From positions 1-48,402 of IMG/VR virus record IMGVR_UViG_3300021378_002465: a stretch of DNA of 48,402 bases; one strand, given 5' to 3'. This DNA comes from a virus. This document shows positions 3,974-45,064 of this stretch, one piece after another. The stretch's first letter is position 1; each line of letters opens with the position of its first letter. Both the position numbers and the translations under genes were made by a program. The notes under the pieces were generated by a model. The model was given only the letters and a program-made list of their open reading frames with translations, searched no databases and had not been told where the DNA came from.

Positions 3974-5662
3974 ATGTCGGATTTTCAAGACGGTTTAACA
4001 AACGTAGATGAATACCTAAACAGAACAGTAAGTATACCAACTGGCGCAGAAATAGATCCAACCACTGGTGTTGTTACTACGACTGAGTCTAGCTTCACAA
4101 TGCGTGAACTTATATGTAGTTTGTTAGCTGGAAATGGATTGAAGTTACCTAATCTACAAATTTGTATTAAAGCTAATTTAGGTAGATTGCTAAACAATGC
4201 AGGTGTTGATTGGCAAGGAGCTCTAGCAGAACTAGAGGGAGCTCTTAAAGAAGCTGAAACGGCCTTGGAAGAATTTACTGCACATACTGATATTGAAAAT
4301 GTTTTAGGACGTATTAATGGTGCTATAGCAGAATTTGCGGCTATTGCAAACATGATTAACTTCTGTGGAACACCTATTCAACCACGTGCAATTCCAAATG
4401 TTTTAGGTGATATGTTTGGTAGTTTTACTGGCGAAGGTAAAAGAATGCTGGATAACTTAGGACAATTAGCTGATAGTGATATTGGTGGATGTATTAATTC
4501 TGATGGAACATTTAAACCAATATTTGCTGGCGGTATTCTAAAAGATATCCAAGACAATCTAAGCAATCTAGCAAATCTACCACAGTCAACACTTGATAAC
4601 TTTACAAACACACTAAAAGCATTTAAAGCAGATATAGACAACCTTATAAAGTTTGAAAATAACTTTGGAACAGGATCTACTGAATCAGCTGGCGGTGGTG
4701 GCGGCGGTGGCGGCGGCGGCGGTGGTGCCGGTGGTATTAACGGAAAAGGCGGAAGCCTATTCGCACCTACTGATAGAATACATACTGGAATTGGTGTAGG
4801 TATTGACCCTAACATTATGACATTAATGCAAGCACAGGGTATTGCAAATAATTTAAAAGCAAATTATGATGCATTAAAAAGTTATGAAGTTGATGGACAA
4901 GGAAATAATATTTTCCATTACTTATTAGAGCCAGAACTAATAGCAAAATTAGATGATGCAGATAACAACGACCCTATTGCTACAATAGGAGGTCAAAATC
5001 CTGTATATGATTACTGTGGTAAAATTATAGGATACACAACAGCAAATGTGCAAGAAAATACAAAAACAAGTACAGGATCAGCGGCAACTATTACTACACA
5101 GCCCGGACTTTCCGGATTATCAACTTCTGGACAAGTAGTTCATAATGCTCCTACTGCAACTACAAACCTAGCAGGAACCAGTACTGCAACTACATCAGGT
5201 GGTGGAAGTGCAACAACATTAAACTTGTCAGTTACCACTGCAAATCCTTCATTAAATCCTGCATTAACTTATAATAATTCAACTGGAGTACTTACATATA
5301 CTCCGCCTAACTTATCAGCATATACGCAGACAACTAACCTGGCGGCTGTTGCATTAAGTAATGATTACTATAGTTTGGACAATTTACCAAGTGTTTCAGT
5401 ACCCACAGTAGTAAGTGCATTTACTAATGATAGCGGATATATTACGTCAAATATAGCCAAATCTGCCCTTAGCGTAACGTCTGCTAGTGCAGGCAGTCCT
5501 AGCTTAACATATAATAATAGCTCTGGTGTTTTTACATATACACCACCAGATTTAAGTGTTTATGCTACAATAGCAACAACAATTACCCTAGCTACTCTTA
5601 AAACAACAGTAGCAGACAGCACCGATTTTGCTGACTTCCAAGCCCGCATTGCGGCACTTTAG
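3974..5662 (+). CDS. Large tail/baseplate-associated structural protein
   Basis: 562 aa. The N-terminal 200 residues are helical and Ala/Leu/Asn-rich. A run of 12 glycines (about residues 240-251) forms a flexible hinge. The C-terminal third is beta-rich and repetitive: two copies of LTYNNS(T/S)GV(L/F)TYTPP (near 5260 and 5505 nt) and a YSLDNLPSV...SAFTNDSGYIT segment, a type common in tail fibres of marine T4-like phages. It starts immediately after the PAAR gene. A fibre or spike-attached adhesin is the best inference. The protein ends in a short helix (DFADFQARIAAL) like a trimerisation or docking tail. Confidence 0.8.
   Translation: MSDFQDGLTNVDEYLNRTVSIPTGAEIDPTTGVVTTTESSFTMRELICSLLAGNGLKLPNLQICIKANLGRLLNNAGVDWQGALAELEGALKEAETALEEFTAHTDIENVLGRINGAIAEFAAIANMINFCGTPIQPRAIPNVLGDMFGSFTGEGKRMLDNLGQLADSDIGGCINSDGTFKPIFAGGILKDIQDNLSNLANLPQSTLDNFTNTLKAFKADIDNLIKFENNFGTGSTESAGGGGGGGGGGGGAGGINGKGGSLFAPTDRIHTGIGVGIDPNIMTLMQAQGIANNLKANYDALKSYEVDGQGNNIFHYLLEPELIAKLDDADNNDPIATIGGQNPVYDYCGKIIGYTTANVQENTKTSTGSAATITTQPGLSGLSTSGQVVHNAPTATTNLAGTSTATTSGGGSATTLNLSVTTANPSLNPALTYNNSTGVLTYTPPNLSAYTQTTNLAAVALSNDYYSLDNLPSVSVPTVVSAFTNDSGYITSNIAKSALSVTSASAGSPSLTYNNSSGVFTYTPPDLSVYATIATTITLATLKTTVADSTDFADFQARIAAL
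4691..4735 (+). repeat. GGN-repeat encoding polyglycine hinge
   Basis: Twelve consecutive Gly codons (GGC/GGT), then Ala and two more Gly. This is the most GC-rich short stretch in an otherwise AT-rich gene, and it separates the helical N-terminal half from the beta-repeat half. The codons are mixed, so purifying selection for Gly rather than recent slippage is plausible. Length polymorphism between relatives would be expected. Confidence 0.85.
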
Positions 5663-7987: not shown

Positions 7988-8865
7988 TAACAGTAATATA
8001 TGGTACTAAAAATGGTACACAAGATAGCATAGCATGGTGGCTATGTCAGCAACCAGGTATAGGCCCTCAAGTATATACGGGTCCAAAGTTCACGTTTAAA
8101 AATAAAGCAGATGAAGATTCTGGTCTAGTTAACGATGCATATAGACATGATGAACATACTGAATGTCATAGATTAATGGAAAATATACGTGGTGATATTA
8201 TTGCACCAATGCGTCCATTAGAAAAAGATTATGACATGCTTGTATGGAGTAATTATTTTGGCAACCTAAAATACTATGATCAAAAAATTGAATGTGATAA
8301 GCTAATTGTCTGTCATCAATCTCCTCTAGAAGATTGCTTTCAATATGTTATGGCTCATGCATTTACACCAATGACAAAAGAAGACGTGGATGGGCATAGT
8401 GAACTGTGGTGGACAGACCATAAACTCGTAAATGGTGAAGTTACAGATAGTTGGAAAGAAGTTTGGTATAGTAAATACCACCAAAAAATGCATGATGCAT
8501 TTGACAATGGCACATTGAAATATATGTGGCAATTAAATTTTATGCATTGGGATCTACATGAAAATATACTCGCAGGTAATGACATACCTATTGAAATGGA
8601 AGATGCTGATAACGTAAAAAGATTGTTATTAGATAAAATATTAGACTACAATGAGAACATGACAGATGTAGTAATTGATTATAATCCAGGATCACTTCTA
8701 ATAGAAGATCCACATTGGTTTAAAGGGCAAAAGCCCCAGATGATTTTAGATTATTTGGATATAAATTGGAGCCCACAATTACGAGATGCTCTTGAGCATT
8801 ATGAACACGCTTATTGGCTTCGCAGAGAATGGTTTGACGATCTAGTTAGAAAGACTCTCTATTAA
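7984..8865 (+). CDS. Hypothetical protein, 293 aa
   Basis: No family recognised. The N-terminus (MITVIYGTKNGTQDSIAWWL) has a beta strand, Gly-rich turn and helix like a nucleotide-binding fold, but without a Walker lysine pattern. The rest is rich in Trp, Asp and His (WSNYFGNLKYY; MHWDLHENIL) with no membrane segment. It resembles in style the gene at 36285. The end overlaps the convergent gene at 8842 by 24 nt. A transferase is possible but unproven. Confidence 0.7.
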   Translation: MITVIYGTKNGTQDSIAWWLCQQPGIGPQVYTGPKFTFKNKADEDSGLVNDAYRHDEHTECHRLMENIRGDIIAPMRPLEKDYDMLVWSNYFGNLKYYDQKIECDKLIVCHQSPLEDCFQYVMAHAFTPMTKEDVDGHSELWWTDHKLVNGEVTDSWKEVWYSKYHQKMHDAFDNGTLKYMWQLNFMHWDLHENILAGNDIPIEMEDADNVKRLLLDKILDYNENMTDVVIDYNPGSLLIEDPHWFKGQKPQMILDYLDINWSPQLRDALEHYEHAYWLRREWFDDLVRKTLY

Positions 8866-9603
8866 CTTGTCGTAACTTCTACACAACAATTCCTTAAAAT
8901 TTTGATTAAACTTGCCGTGTACAATCATATGTATGCGGTCTTCTGTTCCGTTATTAATAACAGCATGTTTTCTGCCAATATCAATAGCACGAACATCTCC
9001 TGGCTCCCACGGAATACAACCAGCTTCCTCCATAGCAAAATCAACTCCTGGTGGATTGCTTACTGCAATATTAAATGCGGCCATTCTCCGTTCATCGTAA
9101 TCTGCATGTGGTTGGATAAATCCACCTGGCTCAATTAACATAAAACGTACACGATCATAATCTGTAAATGGCCATTGTGTTTTAAACCATTTTGTTGTTT
9201 CAGGGCATTGTTCACTTAATTCAGTCCAATGAAACTCTGCTTCAACGCCTGGATATTCTTTTGGTGGATCAGTATATCCTATCCCTTGTCCATGTATACA
9301 CATACTACTCCATCCAGGATGTTGTGGTCCTCTATGTTTTACAAACTGATGATATTGTGCATTGCATTCTTCTAATACTTTTTCATTAGGAAATTCTATA
9401 TCTAGTTTAAGACTAGGACAATTACTTTCACTAACAATCCAAGTTCCATACTCTTGCATTACACCACGATTTTCTTTCCATTCATTAAAATGTTCAGGAC
9501 GTGGAGTTAAGTGTTGGTAATGTTCATGTTCATTACATGCGTCAACAAAAGCTTCAACCTTTGTTTTGAATTCTTCATATTTTTCTTTATTTTTTATGTC
9601 CAT
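8842..9603 (-). CDS. Aspartyl/asparaginyl beta-hydroxylase-like 2OG-Fe(II) oxygenase
   Basis: 253 aa. The core follows the Asp/Asn hydroxylase (PF05118-type) pattern: strand RVRFMLIEPGG, iron ligand His in IQPHADYDE, the strand AAFNIAVSNPPG, a PGDVRAID turn, distal His in GRKHAVINNG and an Arg (EDRIHMIVHG) that would grip 2-oxoglutarate. The N-terminal 110 residues are charged and unassigned. Last of three overlapping minus-strand genes (10-nt overlap with its upstream neighbour). The substrate cannot be read from sequence; protein or peptide hydroxylation is the family norm. Confidence 0.85.
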   Translation of the reverse strand: MDIKNKEKYEEFKTKVEAFVDACNEHEHYQHLTPRPEHFNEWKENRGVMQEYGTWIVSESNCPSLKLDIEFPNEKVLEECNAQYHQFVKHRGPQHPGWSSMCIHGQGIGYTDPPKEYPGVEAEFHWTELSEQCPETTKWFKTQWPFTDYDRVRFMLIEPGGFIQPHADYDERRMAAFNIAVSNPPGVDFAMEEAGCIPWEPGDVRAIDIGRKHAVINNGTEDRIHMIVHGKFNQNFKELLCRSYDKLIESLSN

Positions 9604-13561: not shown

Positions 13562-14079
13562 TGGAATACTTGTATGACTATGCAAGAAGATGGCAAGAGT
13601 CTGAAGATATAGATGATCTGATTAAGTTTAAGCCTAAGAGTTGTATATTAGAAATTGGTGCAGGATGTGGTCACCTTGCACATTACCTTGATAAGAAAGG
13701 CCACACAGTAGTAACCACAAATGCACATGATGATGAAATAAGAGATTGTAATTTAATTCCATATGTACAACCAGTATTTTGGGAATATACAGGATTAGGT
13801 TGCCCTATATCAATATTACAACGTTATGGGCTATATGATTATATTATTGCAAATGGTAATGCTATGCATAAGGCTTCAGGCGGCCTAATTGAAACAGATG
13901 AAGAATATGAGTACCTAGTTAAAGGATTACTGAAGATCTTAAGACCAGGTGGAGAAATATGGTTAGGATTTAACCCAAGTCTTAACAATGAATATATGAA
14001 AAAGTATCAGTACCAGGACGAACGGGCTCATGATATGGTATTGGGTAGTAATGTATTTAAATTTACGAGGAAAATATGA
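13561..14079 (+). CDS. Class I SAM-dependent methyltransferase
   Basis: 172 aa. Motif I is CILEIGAGCGHLAHYL (residues about 23-38), the SAM-binding Gly loop. The following strand HTVVTTNA carries the ribose-side position. IIANGNAMHK is the catalytic-strand region, and LLKILRPGGEIWLGF is the usual post-motif-III hairpin. At 172 aa there is little room for a separate substrate domain, so a small molecule or a partner-presented substrate is likely. Start abuts the oxygenase stop (TAATG). Confidence 0.85.
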   Translation: MEYLYDYARRWQESEDIDDLIKFKPKSCILEIGAGCGHLAHYLDKKGHTVVTTNAHDDEIRDCNLIPYVQPVFWEYTGLGCPISILQRYGLYDYIIANGNAMHKASGGLIETDEEYEYLVKGLLKILRPGGEIWLGFNPSLNNEYMKKYQYQDERAHDMVLGSNVFKFTRKI

Positions 14080-14846
14080 ATTTAGAAAAGGTAATGGCTA
14101 TAGAACATTACACAGATGATTTGTTCTGGTTTAGAACAACAAAGAGTGATGCTTGGGAAAAGAAAAACTTTCAACCAGGTGAATTTACAATGATTGGTAT
14201 GGGTGATAAACTCAGTCCAAACCGTGCTTATAGTATTGCAAATAGTCCAGAAGACGATTACTTGGAATTTTTAAGTATTAAGGTAGAAGACGGTCCATTA
14301 ACTAGTAGACTACAAAACATTGCAGTAGGCGATGAGATAGAAGTAAGTCCAAAAGCAATAGGCACATTACTATTACGTAATTTAGAACCAGAGCCATGTA
14401 TAAACGGTAATGGTAGACTTTGGATGATTAGTACAGGCACAGGCTTAGCACCTTTTCTAAGTTTAGCCAGACATCCGGAGGTATATGAATATTATGAAGA
14501 GGTTATTGTTACTCATACTTGTCGTACTAACGCTGAACTCGTGTTCAGACGGGAATTGGAACAAGCCGGTGCTAAAGTGTACCAAACAGTCACAAGAGAG
14601 GCACCTGCCGAGGGAGTCTACAAAGGAAGAATTACAGACAATATCAGGAGCGGTCTCTTGTTTTCTAATTTGGGAGTAGATCCGTTAGTGTTTGATAAAT
14701 CAAGGGATAGAATTATGATATGTGGCGGACCTGCATTCAATAATGAGATACGTGATATGTTAGAAAGCGTTGGATGGATGCATGGCACAATGCGTAGCCC
14801 TGGTGATTTTGTACAGGAACGTGCATTTGTCGAAACCATCGAGTGA
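14076..14846 (+). CDS. fpr: Ferredoxin-NADP+ reductase
   Basis: 256 aa. FAD domain: RAYSIANSP (RxYS, FAD binding) and a GPLTSRL phosphate-binding stretch. NADP domain: ISTGTGLAPFLSL and ICGGPAFNNEIRDMLE. The C-terminus GDFVQERAFVE is the extension typical of the alphaproteobacterial/bacterial subclass of FPR, plus three residues. It moves electrons between NADPH and ferredoxin or flavodoxin. It overlaps the methyltransferase by 4 nt. Reduced ferredoxin could serve RNR-related, radical-SAM or oxygenase chemistry encoded nearby (inference). A host-derived auxiliary gene is likely. Confidence 0.93.
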   Translation: MNLEKVMAIEHYTDDLFWFRTTKSDAWEKKNFQPGEFTMIGMGDKLSPNRAYSIANSPEDDYLEFLSIKVEDGPLTSRLQNIAVGDEIEVSPKAIGTLLLRNLEPEPCINGNGRLWMISTGTGLAPFLSLARHPEVYEYYEEVIVTHTCRTNAELVFRRELEQAGAKVYQTVTREAPAEGVYKGRITDNIRSGLLFSNLGVDPLVFDKSRDRIMICGGPAFNNEIRDMLESVGWMHGTMRSPGDFVQERAFVETIE

Positions 14847-15212: not shown

Positions 15213-15576
15213 TATAGATAGAGATAACGTTTGGCGTATGAGCCAACCCATTAAATTATACTTGTTTAAAGATGAAGAATCAGTAAAAATAAGTTTCCGT
15301 GTAACTGATTATATGAATATTGGTAGGCAAATGTCAGAAGAACATTTTCAATACATATGTGATAATTGGCGTACCGGTGTTGAAGGTCTAGAAACAAAAA
15401 GTGGCAAGTATTATTGGTATCTTAGTAAATCAGGACCACGTCCTGAACAAGTATCATGTGAATTTGTACAAGTAAACACAGGCCCGTTTAGTTTTAGGTT
15501 TAGCGTAAAGCAAATGGAAGAACTTGTAGAAGAATTTGAGATGCAGAAAATAAGTAAAATGCATTGGGATGATTGA
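15181..15576 (+). CDS. Hypothetical protein, 131 aa
   Basis: No family recognised. Mixed beta/alpha, with a Trp/Tyr-rich middle (TKSGKYYWYLSKSGPRPEQ) and an acidic C-terminal helix (MEELVEEFEMQ). The start is uncertain: ATG 15181 and ATG 15199 are both in frame, and neither has an ideally spaced SD. It overlaps both neighbours, so it belongs to a coupled mini-operon with the coiled-coil and Smr genes. Confidence 0.65.
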   Translation: MWRKKGMNHPNIDRDNVWRMSQPIKLYLFKDEESVKISFRVTDYMNIGRQMSEEHFQYICDNWRTGVEGLETKSGKYYWYLSKSGPRPEQVSCEFVQVNTGPFSFRFSVKQMEELVEEFEMQKISKMHWDD

Positions 15577-15796
15577 TCTTCATGGATATCATGTACATGA
15601 AGCCTGGCGACATTTTAAATCTAAAATAGATGATGCATATTATGCAGGACATAAACGTGTAGAAGTAATTACAGGACAAGGTATAATAATGCGTGAGATG
15701 CCTAATTGGATATCTCAACATTCTAAAATAAGAGAATATAGACAGGCATCATGGAACCCTGGTAGTTTTACTTGTATTTTAATAAAGAAAAAGTAA
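15569..15796 (+). CDS. Smr-domain protein (MutS2 C-terminal type)
   Basis: 75 aa, essentially a stand-alone Smr domain. Signatures are the N-terminal IDLHGYHVHEA (the (L)DLHG motif), VEVITGQG (TGxG) and the terminal strand GSFTCILIKK. Smr domains nick or bind branched DNA or RNA, and bacterial SmrB cleaves mRNA at collided ribosomes. That link is interesting beside a tmRNA-encoding phage genome, but substrate choice is inference. The stop codon is part of a terminator-like hairpin. Confidence 0.85.
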   Translation: MIDLHGYHVHEAWRHFKSKIDDAYYAGHKRVEVITGQGIIMREMPNWISQHSKIREYRQASWNPGSFTCILIKKK

Positions 15797-15811
15797 AAAG
15801 TCTTACTTTTT
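15788..15811 (+). terminator. AT-rich hairpin at the end of the Smr gene
   Basis: Perfect 9-bp inverted repeat AAAAAGTAA/TTACTTTTT with a 6-nt loop AAAGTC. The A-run and T-run make it a possible weak bidirectional terminator. It overlaps the Smr stop codon. Confidence 0.55.
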
Positions 15812-15839: not shown

Positions 15840-15879
15840 AAAATATAGTCTCCTTTTTTTTGACTGACTATATTTTTTT
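15840..15879 (+). terminator. Leader hairpin with T-tract (possible attenuator)
   Basis: Perfect 11-bp stem AAAATATAGTC/GACTATATTTT (15840-15850, 15866-15876), 15-nt T-rich loop, then more T. It lies between the putative promoter and the AsnRS-like gene, where a terminator would be expected to limit expression. An AGGAAAAAG SD follows 11 nt later. Confidence 0.6.
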
Positions 15880-15901: not shown

Positions 15902-16723
15902 ATGACGCAACTGATACAACCAGATAAATTTACAGACACAGTGGGCCTTTTAAGGTCCTTTTTTTTGAGTAAAGGATTCTTAGAAGTCCACACCCAAAAC
16001 AGACTAAGCATACTTGCCGCATGTGAAGATCCATTCAATGTAGCAACATATAATTACGCAGGAAATATTTGGCCACTTCCCCAGACGGGCCAGATGTGGC
16101 TAGAACATGAATTACTTACAAAGCCCGATTCAAAGGGCTTTTTTTGTGTCAGCACGAGCTATAGGCAAGAACCTAATGCAATACCGGGCAGACATGATAT
16201 TATTTTTCCAATGTTTGAATTTGAAATGCCAGGAACAATAGATGATCTAAAGGCAATGGAATATGAACTTTGTGAATATTTAGGATTTGATATACCAACA
16301 GAAAAAACATACGCAGAATGGCAACAAGTTTATAGTGTTGATCCAAATGTAGAAATGGAAGCAGAACACGAAACATTGATGTATAAGGATTTTGTAAGCA
16401 CAATGATTACAGAATTTCCTGAAATGACAAGTCCATTTTGGAATATGTCACGTAACGGAGATGGTACTAGTAGAAAAATTGATGTTATTTTAGGCGGAAT
16501 GGAAACTATTGGATCAGCAGAACGTAGTTGTGATGTTGATATGATGAGAGATACATTCCACACTATTACAGAAGGTGCTTATAGTAATTTACTATTTGAC
16601 TTATTTGGTAAGGAACGTGTAGAAGCAGAACTAGAAGAGTTCCTCAAGTTTGACTTCTTTCCAAGAGTTGGCGGTGGCATTGGTATGACACGTATGATAT
16701 CAGCACTTGATACATTGAAATAA
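15902..16723 (+). CDS. Stand-alone AsnRS-like class IIb aminoacyl-tRNA synthetase core
   Basis: 273 aa from ATG 15902 (SD AGGAAAAAG), not the upstream in-frame ATG at 15860 inside the leader hairpin. Class II signatures: motif 1 around GFLEVHT; TGQMWLE resembling the SGQLxxE stretch of AsnRS; motif 2 SYRQEPNAIPGRHDIIFPMF with the ATP Arg; DVILGGMETIGSAERS matching GExIGGSQRE; motif 3 GGGIGMTRM. The N-terminal OB-fold anticodon domain of AsnRS/AspRS is absent. Candidates: a tRNA-aminoacylating enzyme, an archaeal-type asparagine synthetase, or a protein/tRNA modifier like EpmA. A GUU-anticodon tRNA starts 7 nt downstream. Two terminator-like hairpins are embedded in the coding sequence. Confidence 0.85.
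   Translation: MTQLIQPDKFTDTVGLLRSFFLSKGFLEVHTQNRLSILAACEDPFNVATYNYAGNIWPLPQTGQMWLEHELLTKPDSKGFFCVSTSYRQEPNAIPGRHDIIFPMFEFEMPGTIDDLKAMEYELCEYLGFDIPTEKTYAEWQQVYSVDPNVEMEAEHETLMYKDFVSTMITEFPEMTSPFWNMSRNGDGTSRKIDVILGGMETIGSAERSCDVDMMRDTFHTITEGAYSNLLFDLFGKERVEAELEEFLKFDFFPRVGGGIGMTRMISALDTLK
15943..15966 (+). terminator. Intrinsic-terminator-like hairpin inside the AsnRS-like gene (codons 14-22)
   Basis: Stem GGGCCT/AGGTCC (15943-15948, 15953-15958; one G-U pair), tetraloop TTTA, followed at once by eight T (15959-15966). The frame reads through it as VGLLRSFFL, using GGC, AGG and TCC codons that are uncommon in this AT-rich genome. Confidence 0.65.
16120..16145 (+). terminator. Second intrinsic-terminator-like hairpin inside the AsnRS-like gene
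   Basis: Perfect stem AAAGCCC/GGGCTTT (16120-16126, 16135-16141), 8-nt loop, T-tract through 16145. It encodes TKPDSKGFF, just before motif 2. CCC and GGC codons build the GC part of the stem. Confidence 0.65.
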
Positions 16724-16730
16724 TCAATAA

Positions 16731-16830
16731 TCTGGGGTGATGAAATTGGTAGACATGCACGTCTGTTTAACGTGTGGTAATAACTCGCAAAGTATTTACC
16801 GTGGAGGTTCGAGTCCTTCCCCCAGAGCCA
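16731..16830 (+). tRNA. Unusual class II tRNA with GUU (Asn) anticodon
   Basis: 100 nt. Acceptor TCTGGGG/CCCCAGA is perfect, with discriminator G73 and encoded CCA. Anticodon stem CACGT/ACGTG with loop CTGTTTA gives GUU at 16765-16767. U1-A72, G73 and GUU are tRNA-Asn features. However, the D arm (AAATTGGTAGA, 3-bp stem) is Leu-like and the variable region is 28 nt (16775-16802): stem GGTAA/TTACC, a 2x2 internal loop, ACT/AGT and loop CGCAA. Ordinary tRNA-Asn has a 5-nt variable loop. Position 37 is T, where a purine is normal. T stem GGAGG/CCTTC is intact. It lies 7 nt after the AsnRS-like gene. Confidence 0.8.
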
Positions 16831-28396: not shown

Positions 28397-28957
28397 ATGA
28401 AAATAGCAATCACGCAACGAGTGATTGATTACAAGAATGGGCCGTATGATGCTCTTGATCATGGATTTTATTCCATGTTTAAAGGACACGAACTAATCCC
28501 AATTCCAAATCAACTTAAACATTTCAGATCAACAGCAATCACTGATGCAGACTTAGTCGTGTTCAGTGGTGGCAATAGTATGGTATCAGATGATTGGCAG
28601 TTTAATCATGAGCGACTAAAAGTCGAAAAACATGTATTGGACTTAGCCCTTTCCTATAAAACAAAAATACTGGGTATTAGTAGAGGAACACAATTCCTTA
28701 CAGTAAGTTTTGGTGGATCAATTAAAGCTGATCCAAATCATAAAGAAGATCACATAGTAAAATATAAAGATTCTAACATAACAGTTAGAAGTAGACATAA
28801 TGAAGTTTTAGGATCTGTTCCAGCAGGAGCAACAGTACTAGCAACAGACGCACAAGGCAATCCAGAATCTTGGATGCTTGAACATATAGGTTGTGTACTG
28901 TGGCATCCTGAACGAATGGATAACCATTGGATGCCAGACGAGTTACACTGGTACTAA
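28397..28957 (+). CDS. Class I glutamine amidotransferase-like protein with Cys-to-Ser nucleophile
   Basis: 186 aa. GATase1 architecture: VVFSGGNSM oxyanion region, ILGISRGTQFLTVSFGG nucleophile elbow and CVLWHPERMDN with the His-x-Glu pair. The elbow Cys of the family (GxCxG) is Ser here (GISRG), so glutaminase activity is probably lost or changed. It may have become a hydrolase or a binding protein. It starts directly after clpS (0-nt gap). Confidence 0.8.
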   Translation: MKIAITQRVIDYKNGPYDALDHGFYSMFKGHELIPIPNQLKHFRSTAITDADLVVFSGGNSMVSDDWQFNHERLKVEKHVLDLALSYKTKILGISRGTQFLTVSFGGSIKADPNHKEDHIVKYKDSNITVRSRHNEVLGSVPAGATVLATDAQGNPESWMLEHIGCVLWHPERMDNHWMPDELHWY

Positions 28958-30024: not shown

Positions 30025-30564
30025 ATGAGTATACATGCAATGATAGACCTTGAAACACTAGGTACAAAGCCTGACGCCGTTATTCTTACAATTGGTGGCG
30101 TCAAGTTTAATCCCAATGATATGAGTGAGACACATTCACACTTCTATCATCGATTTGAAGTAGATGAACAACTGATAAAAAAACGCACTACAGAAGAATC
30201 TACACTTGAATGGTGGGGTAAGCAAGACCCTGCGGTAAGAGAAGAAGCGTTAGGTGAGCATAATAGAGAGTCTGTGATGCACATTCTACAAGAACTTAAC
30301 AAGTGGTGCGTTGGAGTACATACTATCTGGACTCAAGGACCTGTATTTGATATTGGCATATTAGAGAATATCTATAGGCAATATGATCATCATGTTCCTT
30401 GGCCCTTTTGGAAAATTAAAGATAGTAGAACACTGTTTGGTATAATGCCAACAGATCCTCGCAAAGAGGTTAAATTCGCGGCACATAATGCACTAGAAGA
30501 TTGTAAAGTACAAGCATTGTGTGTTCAGAAGACACTTAAAAAATTAGGATTAATAGTAAAATGA
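30025..30564 (+). CDS. dexA: DEDD-family 3'-5' exonuclease (DexA-like)
   Basis: 179 aa from ATG 30025 ([14 protein letters not shown]); ATG 30040 is an alternative. Exo [10 protein letters not shown] (Asp, Glu), Exo [15 protein letters not shown] (Asp), Exo [15 protein letters not shown] (His...Asp). This is the RNase T/T4 DexA type of exonuclease that degrades single-stranded DNA or RNA. No SD: the promoter -10 lies 6 nt upstream, consistent with leaderless translation. It overlaps guaC by 4 nt. Confidence 0.88.
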
Positions 30565-31739
30565 GAATTGAAGAAGATATTAAACTAGACTATAAGGATG
30601 TATTGATCCGTCCCAAGCGTAGTACACTGGGTAGTCGTAAAGAAGTAGATCTAGAACGTGGATTTACGTTTCGTAATTACAAATCATACGTATCACCTGA
30701 TGTGTTACCAGATGGATATCCTGTTGTAGAAAAACAAGATAGACACTGGCGTGGTGTTCCCCTTATGGCAAGTAACATGGATGGTGTAGGTACATTTCTA
30801 ATGGCAGATACACTTGCTGAACAAAGTATTTTTACATGCCTTGTTAAAACTTACACTGTTAATGAACTTGTAGGTTACTTTGATAATGATTTTGCAAATA
30901 CTCTCAGACAGGATTATGTTGCAATGAGTATTGGCATCACTGATAGAGATGCACAAAAGTTTCGTGATGTATACGAACAAACAGGTACTGAATTAAAATA
31001 TGTCTGTATTGATGTAGCAAACGGATATAGTGAAAGGTTTTTAAACTTTGTATCAGAGTTTAGAACACAATACCCAAACATAGTAATTATTGCTGGTAAT
31101 GTTGTTACTGGTGATCAAACAGAGGAGTTATTACTAAATGGAGCTGATATTGTTAAAGTGGGCATTGGTCCTGGTAGTGTTTGTACTACTCGCATTAAAA
31201 CTGGCGTCGGTTATCCTCAGCTTTCAGCAGTCATCGAATGTGCCGATGCGGCTCATGGACTCGGTGGCCATATTATCGCTGACGGCGGTTGTACTTGCCC
31301 AGGCGATGTAGCAAAAGCATTTGCAGGCGGAGCAGACTTTGTAATGCTAGGCGGTATGCTTGCTGGACATGATCAAGGCGGTGGTGATATCGTAACCAAA
31401 CATACTGCAACAGGTGGAGCATATAAAACACCTGAAGGAACATTTATCCCACATTTTGAAGAAAGACATTTCGTACAATTTTATGGTATGAGCAGTGATG
31501 CCGCAAACACAAAACACTTTGGTGGCTTAAAAGACTATCGTGCTAGTGAAGGCAGAGAAGTATTGGTTCCATATCGTGGATCAGTTAATGATACAATACA
31601 AGGTATTCTAGGAGGTATGCGTAGTACATGCACGTATGCAGGTGCCCTTAGATTAAAGCATTTGAACAAGTGTACAACATTTATTAGATGTACACAACAA
31701 TTCAATGCAACATATGAAAGCACTACAACAAAACTGTGA
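30561..31739 (+). CDS. guaC: GMP reductase
   Basis: 392 aa TIM-barrel of the IMPDH/GMPR family. Catalytic loop [21 protein letters not shown] with Cys208; [17 protein letters not shown] phosphate site; [16 protein letters not shown] then [15 protein letters not shown] and [14 protein letters not shown], the GuaC-specific tail. No CBS domains, which excludes IMPDH. It reduces GMP to IMP with NADPH, so guanine nucleotides can be redirected to adenine. That would suit an AT-rich genome (inference). About 45 aa longer than E. coli GuaC, mainly near residues 40-65. Confidence 0.95.
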
Positions 31740-40421: not shown

Positions 40422-41273
40422 ATGTACAATATTCAGAATGACTTGCTGTACCGTGCAACGAGTTCGAATAATTGGGAACAGGTTCCATTCTATCCAACAC
40501 CTAATGTTGGTGGATCAATAACCCCACGATTCCTAGTTATTCACTTCACAGCCGGTGCCGCGAATGCTGTTCAAACAGCACAATATTTCCAAAAGCCTGA
40601 AGCAAAAACATCAGCACATCTTAACTTAGATAAAGATGGCACCTGGACACAGAATGTAGAATTCAGTGTAAAAGCGTGGCATGCTGGTAAAAGCTCATGG
40701 GCTGGAATCAGAAACCTCAATAGCACATCAATTGGTATTGAAGTATGTAACCCAGGACCATTAACCATTACTAAAAATGGTTATAAAACTTGGTGGGGCA
40801 AAAGCATTGATGATCCAGATATCATTGAAGCACCACATCCTAATGCGCCTAACGGTGAAGTATATGGATGGCAACCTTTTACAGAAGCACAAGTAAATGC
40901 TCTAATTGAAGTTGGACAAACTTTAATGATACAGTACGGTTTAGAAGAATGTGTAGGTCATGATATGATCTCACCTGGCCGTAAACGTGATCCAGGACCT
41001 TGTATGAACTACAGAGTCTATGAGCAGATTAATGCGGCTATGGACAATCCTAATAATACATGGGAATGGTATGTTGCTAATGTTAAAACAAGTCTTAATG
41101 CCCGTGGTGGACCCGGTACAAGTTATGATATCGTAGGTACACTGCCTAAAGGCACTGCCATAGATGAAATTCTTGCAAAAGAAGGCGTATGGTGGTTTTG
41201 TGAACTAGAAGAAGGTGAGCAAGTTTGGCTACATTCCAAATTTTTAGGAAAACGCCAAGTTCCAAATGGCTGA
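40422..41273 (+). CDS. Endolysin: N-acetylmuramoyl-L-alanine amidase with SH3 domain
   Basis: 283 aa. Amidase_2 domain (residues about 25-200) with zinc ligand His in VIHFTAGAAN, substrate segment KTSAHLNLDKDG, and His/Asp ligands in VGHDMISPGRKRDPG. C-terminal SH3_3 domain (about 215-278): TSLNARGGPGTSYDIVGTLP and VWWFCELEEGEQVWLH. It cuts the peptide from muramic acid at lysis. No signal peptide, so it needs a holin; a candidate is directly upstream. Confidence 0.93.
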   Translation: MYNIQNDLLYRATSSNNWEQVPFYPTPNVGGSITPRFLVIHFTAGAANAVQTAQYFQKPEAKTSAHLNLDKDGTWTQNVEFSVKAWHAGKSSWAGIRNLNSTSIGIEVCNPGPLTITKNGYKTWWGKSIDDPDIIEAPHPNAPNGEVYGWQPFTEAQVNALIEVGQTLMIQYGLEECVGHDMISPGRKRDPGPCMNYRVYEQINAAMDNPNNTWEWYVANVKTSLNARGGPGTSYDIVGTLPKGTAIDEILAKEGVWWFCELEEGEQVWLHSKFLGKRQVPNG

Positions 41274-42492
41274 CTTAAAGCAGTACAACAAACATAGTAG
41301 TACCTGGTGCCCTATTCCTTTTGTAGGTTTAAGCCTACATCCTATGGGGTTCTTAACTCGTTGTATGATGAGTGAAGAGGTAATGAGCAACTCTGATGAA
41401 ATGGATTGGGATAGCCCAGAGTTTCAGAAATTAAGACAGAGTATGCTTGATGGCAAGTGGGATTCACCTGGTTGTGATAATTGCAAAATGAAGGAAGACA
41501 CTGGTGTTCAGAGTCAGAGACAGAACTGGTTAAAGAACACAATTAAGAAGTTTCCAGATGGCGCATATGAAGATCCAGGACTTACTGATAACACAGTAAG
41601 ACACTTGTTTTTAAACTTTAATAATGTTTGTAATTTTAAGTGCCGTATGTGTAGCCCACGTTACAGTAATAGTCTTATTCCTGAACATAAGAGCATACAC
41701 AAGAACTATAAGGAACTGACTGGTGTAAAGTTTGAAGAAGAGAACCATAAGAACATTAACAATGTTATGAAGTTCTTAGAAACAAATAAGCACCGGTTAA
41801 AAAATATAACAAGTATATGGATTACCGGTGGCGAACCTTTCATTGATAATACAATGTATAAGGTTCGCGACCTATTATATGAACATGCCAATCCAGAACA
41901 GATTCGTATGAGTATTACTACAAATGGAAGTAGATGTAGTATTGAAGATATAGCAACGTTTAGTAGATTTAAACAAATACATTTTGATTTAAGTTTAGAT
42001 ACTATTGGTCCTATGTTTGAATATATGCGTAGTGCAGGCGTATATACTTGGAATGAAATGAAAGAATTTATAATAGAGCTTGGAGAGTTTAGAGAACAAA
42101 ATAAAGATTGGTTACTCGTAAGTTTAAATAGCACATATCAGTTATATAATGCACATTTGATTAAAGAATTTTATGAATTTACATATGATCAGCTAGGAGC
42201 AGGTCATGTTAATATGCGTGTGTTAGTAGGCCCTATGAAGTTAGGCTTTCAAGCACGTAATACACCTGAAAGTATTAAAGAGATTGCAAATAAAGAAATA
42301 GAAGAATTACTAAAGCATGATTGGTTAGAAGAAGATGATATTAGAACCATCAACGATTGTGCTACAATGCTTAACAAAGATATTGAATTCAAACATTGGG
42401 AAGCGTTTAAAACATTTTGCAAAGCTCAAGATGATTTCAGAGATGTAAGGTTAGAGGATTATCATCCTCAACTGGCAAAGGAAATGGTATGA
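41266..42492 (+). CDS. Radical SAM/twitch-domain protein
   Basis: 408 aa. N-terminal cysteines (STWCPIPF, LTRCMMSEE, PGCDNCK) resemble the twitch/SPASM auxiliary motif placed before the barrel. The radical SAM motif is NVCNFKCRMC, followed by IWITGGEPF, MSITTNGS and FDLSLDTIG. Such proteins recur in T4-like marine phages, function unknown. It overlaps the endolysin by 8 nt and the following oxygenase by 4 nt, suggesting the radical SAM and oxygenase enzymes work on the same substrate (inference). Confidence 0.85.
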   Translation: MADLKQYNKHSSTWCPIPFVGLSLHPMGFLTRCMMSEEVMSNSDEMDWDSPEFQKLRQSMLDGKWDSPGCDNCKMKEDTGVQSQRQNWLKNTIKKFPDGAYEDPGLTDNTVRHLFLNFNNVCNFKCRMCSPRYSNSLIPEHKSIHKNYKELTGVKFEEENHKNINNVMKFLETNKHRLKNITSIWITGGEPFIDNTMYKVRDLLYEHANPEQIRMSITTNGSRCSIEDIATFSRFKQIHFDLSLDTIGPMFEYMRSAGVYTWNEMKEFIIELGEFREQNKDWLLVSLNSTYQLYNAHLIKEFYEFTYDQLGAGHVNMRVLVGPMKLGFQARNTPESIKEIANKEIEELLKHDWLEEDDIRTINDCATMLNKDIEFKHWEAFKTFCKAQDDFRDVRLEDYHPQLAKEMV

Positions 42493-44016: not shown

Positions 44017-44388
44017 ATGGAATGGTTGTTATTAGCACTCATGATTAAACATGCAGTGGCAGATTTATTTGTACAAAGTTTTAGAGCGCCTGGCAACAAG
44101 GCGACTTTATTAAGCAAGTCTAACTTGCTTCACAGTGGGGATCATGCAATACTGACAGCCGCTGTAATTGTTGCATTTGGATATACTATACAAACTGCTA
44201 TACTAATGGCAGTTCTAGATTTAGTCCTACATTATACTATTGATGGATCTAAAACAAGATTCATTAAACGTAAAGGATGGAAAAGATCTGGGAAGAAATT
44301 TTGGAGACTACAAGCTCTAGATCAGGCTTTACACTACATTACGTACGGTTTGATCATCTTTTTGGTTGACAATTATGGACTCTTATAG
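44017..44388 (+). CDS. DUF3307-like integral membrane protein
   Basis: 123 aa with three hydrophobic segments and the DUF3307 pattern of polar residues within them: KHAVADLFVQ, HSGDHAILTAAVIV, LHYTIDGSKTRF and ALDQALHYITYGLIIFL. Bacterial and phage members have no firm function. Its last codons contain the -35 of the tmRNA promoter. Confidence 0.8.
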   Translation: MEWLLLALMIKHAVADLFVQSFRAPGNKATLLSKSNLLHSGDHAILTAAVIVAFGYTIQTAILMAVLDLVLHYTIDGSKTRFIKRKGWKRSGKKFWRLQALDQALHYITYGLIIFLVDNYGLL

Positions 44389-44394
44389 TATAAA
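44366..44394 (+). promoter_or_regulatory. tmRNA promoter
   Basis: TTGACA (44366-44371), 17-bp spacer, TATAAA (44389-44394). The -10 is part of TATAAATA (44389-44396), so the site could be read by host sigma70 and by a T4-late-type factor. Confidence 0.75.
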
Positions 44395-44397
44395 TAT

Positions 44398-44695
44398 AGA
44401 TGTTAACGTTGAAGTGACGTAAACATATTCTGGACCTGGGGGCAGTACCCAGCGCCTCCACCATAAGCACACCGTGATAAAAGGTTGCGGTGTTTTTATG
44501 ATGGGGGCGAAAAAGGATCGACAGGTATGGGAGTGAAGTGGAGTTAACCGGATGACTGCGTTATTGGTCAAAAATAATAATTGCAAACGACAATTATAAA
44601 CCTGAGTTAGCCATCGCGGCGTAGAACTCACAGGCCGTAGGGAGCCTCGGAACAGAATCCCTACATTTTTAAATGGCACATTCCGTGCCTTAACT
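44398..44695 (+). ncRNA. ssrA: Circularly permuted (two-piece) transfer-messenger RNA
   Basis: tmRNA frees stalled ribosomes and adds a degradation tag. Acceptor piece first: T arm CTGGG-GGCAGTA-CCCAG (44436-44452), CGCCTCC, A, CCA (44453-44463). An intervening segment with hairpin ACACCG/CGGTGT (44469-44493) follows. Coding piece: GGGGGCG (44503-44509) pairs with CGCCTCC, placing a G-U at position 3-70, the alanine identity pair. Then GGATCGACAGGTATG, and a tag frame 44583-44624 starting GCAAACGAC and encoding ANDNYKPELAIAA-stop. Downstream helices: GTAGGGA/TCCCTAC (44637-44664) and GGCAC/GTGCC (44675-44689). Outer ends are approximate. This permuted order is known from alphaproteobacteria. 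Confidence 0.95.
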
Positions 44696-44710
44696 ATAAG
44701 GAAATAAGTT

Positions 44711-45064
44711 ATGAAAACTATTTTAGTAGCAGGTGCATTAGCACTTATGACTTCTTTTGCGTCAGCAGACACAACTGTAAGTTCACCAGCTGGTATGGAC
44801 ATTAAACCTTACATTGGTTTAGAACGTGCTTTAGAAGCTGAGAAAAATAAATTATACCTAGGTGCAACAACATCATTGGGTGTATTAAATCTTAAAGTCC
44901 AAACCAACGTAGTAGATACTGCGGCGGCATCATGGGCATACACTGGTATGGATTTGGATCTATCCACTAAAGTGTCTGACAATATGGTATTGTTCATGAA
45001 CAATGATATTGACAAAGATTGGAAGCGTTCTGAAACAACAATTGGTGTTAAAGTAAGCTTCTAA
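44711..45064 (+). CDS. Small exported protein (outer-membrane/porin-like)
   Basis: 117 aa. Clear signal peptide (MKTILVAGALALMTSFASA, cleavage before DTTV). The mature part alternates short strands (YIGLERALEAEKNKLYLGAT; LDLSTKVSDNMVLFMNN) and ends in aromatic-terminated IGVKVSF, the C-terminal Phe typical of outer-membrane beta strands. It is too short for a full barrel. It lies 16 nt after the tmRNA and before a terminator, so it probably shares the tmRNA transcript. Confidence 0.75.
   Translation: MKTILVAGALALMTSFASADTTVSSPAGMDIKPYIGLERALEAEKNKLYLGATTSLGVLNLKVQTNVVDTAAASWAYTGMDLDLSTKVSDNMVLFMNNDIDKDWKRSETTIGVKVSF

Follow-up and report, generated by a model that had tools for sequence, protein, structure and literature searches.

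We find that a viral contig from IMG/VR encodes a catalytic core derived from asparaginyl-tRNA synthetase (AsnRS), followed directly by a class II tRNA with a GUU anticodon, and that cellular relatives of this core recurrently lie in operons with genes of pyrimidine synthesis. The window, that is, the whole stretch of DNA analysed, comprises 48,402 nt, and its features are collected in Table 1. The enzyme family is previously undescribed, and we consider it probable that the enzyme acts in the pyrimidine pathway. That it forms dihydroorotate directly, a chemistry we predict from gene context and active-site changes, has in our judgement an even chance of being right, and we suggest more tentatively, at a little short of even, that the tRNA is a non-decoding carrier. 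Taken as a whole explanation, an AsnRS-core family serving pyrimidine synthesis and accompanied in viruses by a private asparagine-carrier tRNA is a proposal that we hold to be evenly balanced.

Table 1. Features of the window, with positions counted from its first nucleotide.
Feature	Positions	Strand	Basis	Remarks
AsnRS-derived catalytic core, 273 aa, no anticodon-binding domain	15902–16723	+	PF00152, PHROG 29758, AF2 model and Foldseek, tree	ATG at 15902; stop ends at 16723
Class II tRNA, GUU anticodon, U1-A72, G73, encoded CCA, pyrimidine 37	16731–16830	+	covariance model, covariation in relatives, sequence	16731–16827 plus encoded CCA 16828–16830, 100 nt in all; gap to enzyme stop 7 nt
Anticodon loop CTGTTTA	16763–16769	+		anticodon 16765–16767; position 37 is U at 16768
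Variable arm, 28 nt, paired stem	16775–16802	+	sequence; relatives	
First in-frame terminator-like hairpin and T8	15943–15966	+	hairpin scan, shuffle test	about nucleotides 42–66 of the enzyme gene
Second in-frame terminator-like hairpin and T run	16120–16148	+	hairpin scan, shuffle test	about nucleotides 219–247 of the enzyme gene
Leader hairpin ATATAGTC/GACTATAT, then T run	15843–15879	+	by eye in window and relatives	weak stem; possible third attenuator
Short ORF just upstream of enzyme	15560–15797		by eye	Smr domain-like
Flavin/NAD oxidoreductase	14076–14846		FAD_binding_6 (weak), NAD_binding_1	about 1 kb upstream of enzyme
Aspartyl/asparaginyl beta-hydroxylase-like gene	8842–9603			
Class I glutamine amidotransferase	28397–28957			near the IMP dehydrogenase-like gene
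IMP dehydrogenase-like gene	30561–31739		IMPDH, 221 bits	
Radical SAM protein	41266–42492			QueE-like similarity
Permuted phage tmRNA, alphaproteobacterial type	44357–44715			tag ANDNYKPELAIAA

The enzyme matches the class II D/K/N synthetase domain (PF00152, 58.4 bits, residues 14–269) and no further domain in the Pfam search, and its AF2 model (mean pLDDT 94.6, from an alignment of 98 sequences with two phage-collection rows left out) consists of the class II catalytic domain alone; by both, the N-terminal OB-fold anticodon-binding domain is absent from this single-domain protein. The open reading frame, Pfam and AF2 thus agree with the first-pass annotation, which had described an AsnRS-type core of this length just 5′ of the tRNA. 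The top PDB structures found by Foldseek were AsnRS and AspRS, and a profile search placed AsnRS first (2xgt, 52 bits), ahead of the best AspRS (39 bits) and the archaeal asparagine synthetase 3p8t (24 bits). In a tree with AsnRS, AspRS, LysRS and EpmA, the enzyme is sister to AsnRS (support 94/88) on a very long branch, and it scores 20.3 bits with the AsnRS equivalog model TIGR00457, below the cut-off of 342.6. The enzyme shares with AsnRS the fold, motifs 2 and 3 and the asparagine pocket, where TGQMWLE resembles the SGQLxxE of AsnRS and is unlike the QSPQLxKQ of AspRS. It differs from AsnRS in the missing N-terminal domain, in its pyrimidine gene context and in two signature residues: Ile (or another hydrophobic residue) stands in place of the class IIb Glu in RHxxEF, and Arg in place of the His in PHxG, replacements that suggest a changed chemistry. 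As the ATP-site and amino-acid-site residues are invariant across 98 enzyme sequences, the enzyme is probably catalytically live. A dozen positions mark the tRNA-paired enzymes, mostly shared with unpaired near relatives and hence uninformative. We conclude that the enzyme is AsnRS-derived. HisZ, GluQ-RS and EpmA are likewise synthetase cores without an anticodon domain that have been recruited to metabolism or modification; to our knowledge, neither these nor the archaeal asparagine synthetase act in pyrimidine synthesis or are paired with a tRNA of their own.

The first-pass annotation had named, as the alternative to an AsnRS origin, an asparagine synthetase lying next to an unrelated tRNA; we considered one of the archaeal AS-A type. 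AS-A (P. abyssi, 3p8t) is also a truncated class IIb core that lacks the anticodon domain, and the weak 3p8t profile match speaks for this identity, but the two belong to different profile families: the NCBIfam asparagine synthetase A model (NF005055), whose cut-off is 389 bits, scores the enzyme at 17.9, the AsnRS matches are stronger, and a Pfam match to AsnA was not found. The tree and the profile scores group the enzyme with AsnRS instead. Furthermore, the tRNA is not unrelated, being covarying and conserved as part of the pair, and an asparagine synthetase would leave the pyrimidine context unexplained. We therefore reject this identity and regard the reading as highly improbable.

The family matches PHROG 29758 (433 bits), annotated as of unknown function, and in cyanophages it corresponds to T4-GC 194, ‘tRNA ligase’, which is merely how the gene is given for P-SSM2 and P-SSM7 in the cyanophage paper of 2010 (PMC3037559). 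Our literature search, which left out preprints and most subscription journals, found no paper linking an AsnRS paralogue to pyrimidines or describing such a tRNA.

The tRNA combines features of two families, as had been noticed from its Asn identity elements, Leu-like D arm and structured variable arm, and both the sequence and the covariance model bear this out. With bacterial tRNA-Asn it has GUU, G73 and U1-A72 in common, but it carries a long variable arm rather than the short one of class I, a Leu-like D arm and, in the window as in most relatives, no A37 (present in 8 of 111). With class II tRNA-Leu it shares the D arm, the elbow and the long variable arm, but it has GUU in place of a Leu anticodon, G73 in place of A73, U1-A72 and a pyrimidine at position 37. 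On a covariance model built from 40 tRNA sequences, the window's own included, it scores 93 bits, the two tRNA-Leu of the window 60 and 57, and others 34 or less; since tRNA-Leu comes next, we take the body of the tRNA to be Leu-like. The variable arm measures 11–33 nt or more in relatives. The window tRNA was missed by ARAGORN and by Rfam at the gathering threshold, and ARAGORN labels relatives' tRNAs as tRNA-Asp (L171) or tRNA-Glu (L317), which may explain why the tRNA has been overlooked so far.

A chance tRNA-like sequence can be rejected from covariation. Among 40 diverse relatives all 918 cells pair, which is partly a selection effect as the parser had chosen well-paired tRNAs, and both partners have changed in 20 of the 23 pairs, compared with 13.9 in shuffles, a count that the selection leaves unaffected. 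A shifted anticodon register was also rejected, every variant having a 5-bp stem and a 7-nt loop that contains GUU. The elbow and T loop are canonical. U1-A72, G73 and GUU are invariant in 111 of 111 distinct tRNAs, and at position 37 a pyrimidine stands in 103 of them (U in 98, C in 5, A in the other 8); position 33 is not U in 8 of the 111. Control tRNAs from the same loci have U33 and a purine at 37 without exception (66/66). A37 is expected in a tRNA that reads AAC and AAU, and pyrimidine 37 thus makes this tRNA a poor candidate decoder; either its decoding is relaxed or it does not decode. The conservation of GUU could equally reflect decoding. Pyrimidine 37, like the in-frame terminators and the pyrimidine genes near relatives, goes beyond the earlier description of the locus.

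Homologues of the enzyme occur in at least 600 viral contigs. Conservation of the pair in relatives had been set beforehand as a test of the pairing, and the tRNA is found directly 3′ of the enzyme in 175 of 191 viral loci, nearly always 4–12 nt past the stop. Among the 16 loci without a called tRNA, seven end at a contig edge, and in L066 the covariance model recovered a tRNA that the parser had missed. Genuine absence is seen in L009/L010 (the 187-kb contig L010 has the enzyme, and a class II tRNA-Asn was not found in it), L021, L061 and the megaphage-like L085–L088, so the tRNA is not strictly needed by the enzyme. A search of the megaphages for a hidden class II tRNA-Asn found ordinary tRNA-Asn instead; two of them, L085 (LR756501, 735 kb) and L086 (LR756508, 484 kb), have distant enzyme homologues, and LR756501 has large tRNA clusters including several tRNA-Asn and tRNA-Leu. 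The tRNA-paired enzymes nest within the cellular tree at two places, which makes the tRNA look like a viral addition. Outside the main viral clade, pairing with the tRNA is also seen in a second lineage, that of L177 (tRNA at 4316–4403) and L217 (7077–7167); two pairs in the acceptor stem of the L217 tRNA are mismatched, and this tRNA may have decayed. In P-SSM7 and P-SSM5 an annotated tRNA-Asn comes after the annotated ‘tRNA ligase’. In the P-SSM2 record (AY939844.2) the tRNA sequence comes immediately past the ‘tRNA ligase’ gene at 162073, and GenBank's tRNA-Asn PSSM2_199 (164094–164179) appears to sit about 2 kb from the place that the sequence supports.

The near-universal adjacency of enzyme and tRNA, the AsnRS-type amino-acid pocket, the canonical elbow and T loop, and a GUU that is invariant even though the enzyme lacks an anticodon domain would all suit a private translation pair, in which asparagine would be loaded by the enzyme onto the class II tRNA, perhaps by way of the variable arm, so that AAC and AAU are decoded during infection free of host enzymes or anticodon nucleases. 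The first-pass annotation had favoured such a private aminoacyl-tRNA pair, and what stands of it is the conserved pairing and the AsnRS ancestry. Translation as the main function is opposed by pyrimidine 37, by the viruses that have the enzyme without the tRNA, and by the cellular members, where no such tRNA was seen among the matches read and several genomes also have a full AsnRS; it would also leave unexplained the pyrimidine operons, the exclusion of PyrB and the co-occurrence with PyrE described below. We judge a translation pair to be unlikely.

A scan of 84,980 species gave 105 relatives of the enzyme, carried by Patescibacteria, DPANN archaea, Dependentiae, Midichloriaceae, Gammaproteobacteria, Pasteurella atlantica and others; L169–L171, L177 and L217, which carry the tRNA, probably represent viral contigs within MAGs. 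Of 75 cellular loci, 17 have pyrE, pyrF, pyrD or prs at a distance of about 6 kb or less. The order in P. atlantica is enzyme-pyrF-phosphoribosyltransferase, where the enzyme gene and pyrF are 2 nt apart and pyrD lies just upstream, in Ca. Bandiella it is enzyme-pyrF-phosphoribosyltransferase-pyrD-prs, and in gammaproteobacteria the enzyme adjoins a fused pyrEF. Curated models confirm PyrF, the quinone-type PyrD, the cyanophage PyrE, the PyrEF fusion and Prs, while curated cut-offs are not reached by the short phosphoribosyltransferase at the pyrE position or by the small PyrD-like proteins, all of which are divergent. The enzyme thus shares operon position with pyrD, pyrE and pyrF, as do the genes of the PyrB/PyrC/CarAB pathway, but its fold is unrelated to theirs and its gene is found where they are missing.

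Above the cut-offs, PyrB was found in one, PyrC in one and full CarB in two of 25 enzyme-bearing genomes, many of which are incomplete MAGs or reduced, which weakens the count of PyrB absence; DHODH was found in 17 of the 25, and PyrB in 14 of 14 control genomes. For this reason we compared 36 genomes of a single gammaproteobacterial order, where PyrB is present in none of five enzyme-bearing and in 25 of 31 enzyme-free genomes (Fisher p=0.0012). Pasteurellaceae relatives such as H. influenzae lack the early pyrimidine steps anyway, and one Coatesbacteria genome (G014) has the enzyme alongside PyrB and PyrC. Most carriers among the Patescibacteria and DPANN have no nearby pyr genes and lack PyrD too, so a pyrimidine role there would be conjectural. 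Seven enzyme-bearing genomes encode a full AsnRS, and the enzyme is therefore not their sole asparaginyl synthetase. In the 25 cellular genomes, the best one or two matches per genome were read for their anticodon; these were tRNA-Leu and tRNA-Ser, with no class II tRNA-Asn among them.

In the viruses, the enzyme lies 1.5–4.8 kb from a phosphoribosyltransferase of the PyrE position in 25 of 80 IMG/VR loci, and prs directly follows the tRNA in L262 and L269. Across 460 related phage records (a CobS-based count), the enzyme is confined, as far as isolates are concerned, to P-SSM2, P-SSM5 and P-SSM7, and the same three are the only isolates that encode a close viral PyrE (at least 50% identical to the L129 query), the remaining close matches being uncultured marine single-cell fragments. 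As P-SSM2 and P-SSM5 are of the same genus, this co-occurrence amounts to two independent cases. The short PyrE-position phosphoribosyltransferase, of the P. atlantica or viral-contig type, was found in none of the cultured phages, and a PyrD search of the phage records gave matches unconnected with the enzyme. PyrE, PyrD and PyrF were not found in the window, which is itself a fragment of a larger phage.

The enzyme gene contains terminator-like hairpins in frame. In 164 distinct viral enzyme genes we counted 300, where 35 were expected and the maximum was 46 in 40 synonymous shuffles that preserve protein and codon use; in the enzyme genes of the genome scan we counted 47 where 9.7 were expected, mostly at the same two places, and other viral ORFs 20 against 12. 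The hairpin is retained between clades while the stem sequences differ. Terminators inside a gene would make sense if ribosome coupling decides read-through. The pyrBI operon of E. coli is attenuated by an intrinsic terminator under UTP-dependent coupling of transcription and translation. The likeness here is an intrinsic terminator on a pyrimidine gene; the difference is that two hairpins lie within the structural gene, and control by UTP is our inference. By analogy with enteric pyrBI, the in-frame attenuators probably tune expression via such coupling.

We suggest that in cells the enzyme would stand in for carbamoyl-phosphate synthase (CarAB), PyrB and PyrC. Asparagine and ATP would be bound as in AsnRS and dihydroorotate would most likely be passed to PyrD, the simplest stoichiometry that we infer being Asn + bicarbonate + ATP -> dihydroorotate + AMP + PPi. 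With CarAB, PyrB and PyrC absent, PyrD retained and the active site altered, a one-step dihydroorotate enzyme fits and is the most economical reading. Phages could use the enzyme to boost the supply of pyrimidines, in some cases together with PyrE, PyrD-like or Prs genes.

In the main viral clade, the enzyme is accompanied by this tRNA, which we take for a private tRNA-Asn remodelled from a tRNA-Leu. It retains GUU, G73 and U1-A72, which are read by host Asn-tRNA enzymes, and has lost the purine 37 that the control tRNAs keep; its asparaginyl form would then probably feed the enzyme and not the ribosome. Since the Asn elements read by the host are kept and a decoding feature is lost, a private asparagine carrier is favoured. 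More specifically, tRNA-borne asparagine could be the substrate for dihydroorotate, bypassing CarAB, PyrB and PyrC, and either host enzymes or the core itself would charge the tRNA, although we find this version rather doubtful. Glutamyl-tRNA in tetrapyrrole synthesis, where it is used by HemA, is a precedent for an aminoacyl-tRNA as a metabolic substrate; it differs in using the ordinary tRNA-Glu and in its chemistry.

Alternatively, the pyrimidine enzyme could be independent of tRNA, and the tRNA a regulator or decoy: a feedback ligand, a mark or stabiliser of the mRNA 3′ end, or a sponge for a host tRNA-Asn factor. All the evidence for a pyrimidine role is compatible with this, as are the 7-nt gap that puts the tRNA on the same transcript and the persistence of the enzyme without it in L009/L010, L021 and L061, and the changed anticodon loop would suit a decoy. 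The strict conservation of GUU, U1-A72 and G73, however, exceeds the needs of a structural 3′ end, and we assign this option a low probability, preferring the asparagine carrier.

Other genes of the window touch on metabolism and on the host. Candidate identities for the oxidoreductase 5′ of the enzyme are a ferredoxin reductase and a PyrK-like electron-transfer subunit, and the IMP dehydrogenase-like and glutamine amidotransferase genes suggest purine metabolism. An alphaproteobacterial host had been assumed at first; the type of the tmRNA agrees with this, but NrdA and PhoH are nearest to those of Stenotrophomonas and PA5oct-type Pseudomonas phages, so that an alphaproteobacterial host is no more than possible.

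If our explanation is correct, a single synthetase-derived enzyme has, in scattered bacteria and viruses, taken the place of the three textbook steps that open pyrimidine synthesis, and genomes that have PyrD, PyrE and PyrF without the start of the pathway would be explained. It would further mean that common marine phages, including the cultured P-SSM2 and P-SSM7, retain a tRNA for metabolism and not for decoding, and that attenuators can be located within a gene.
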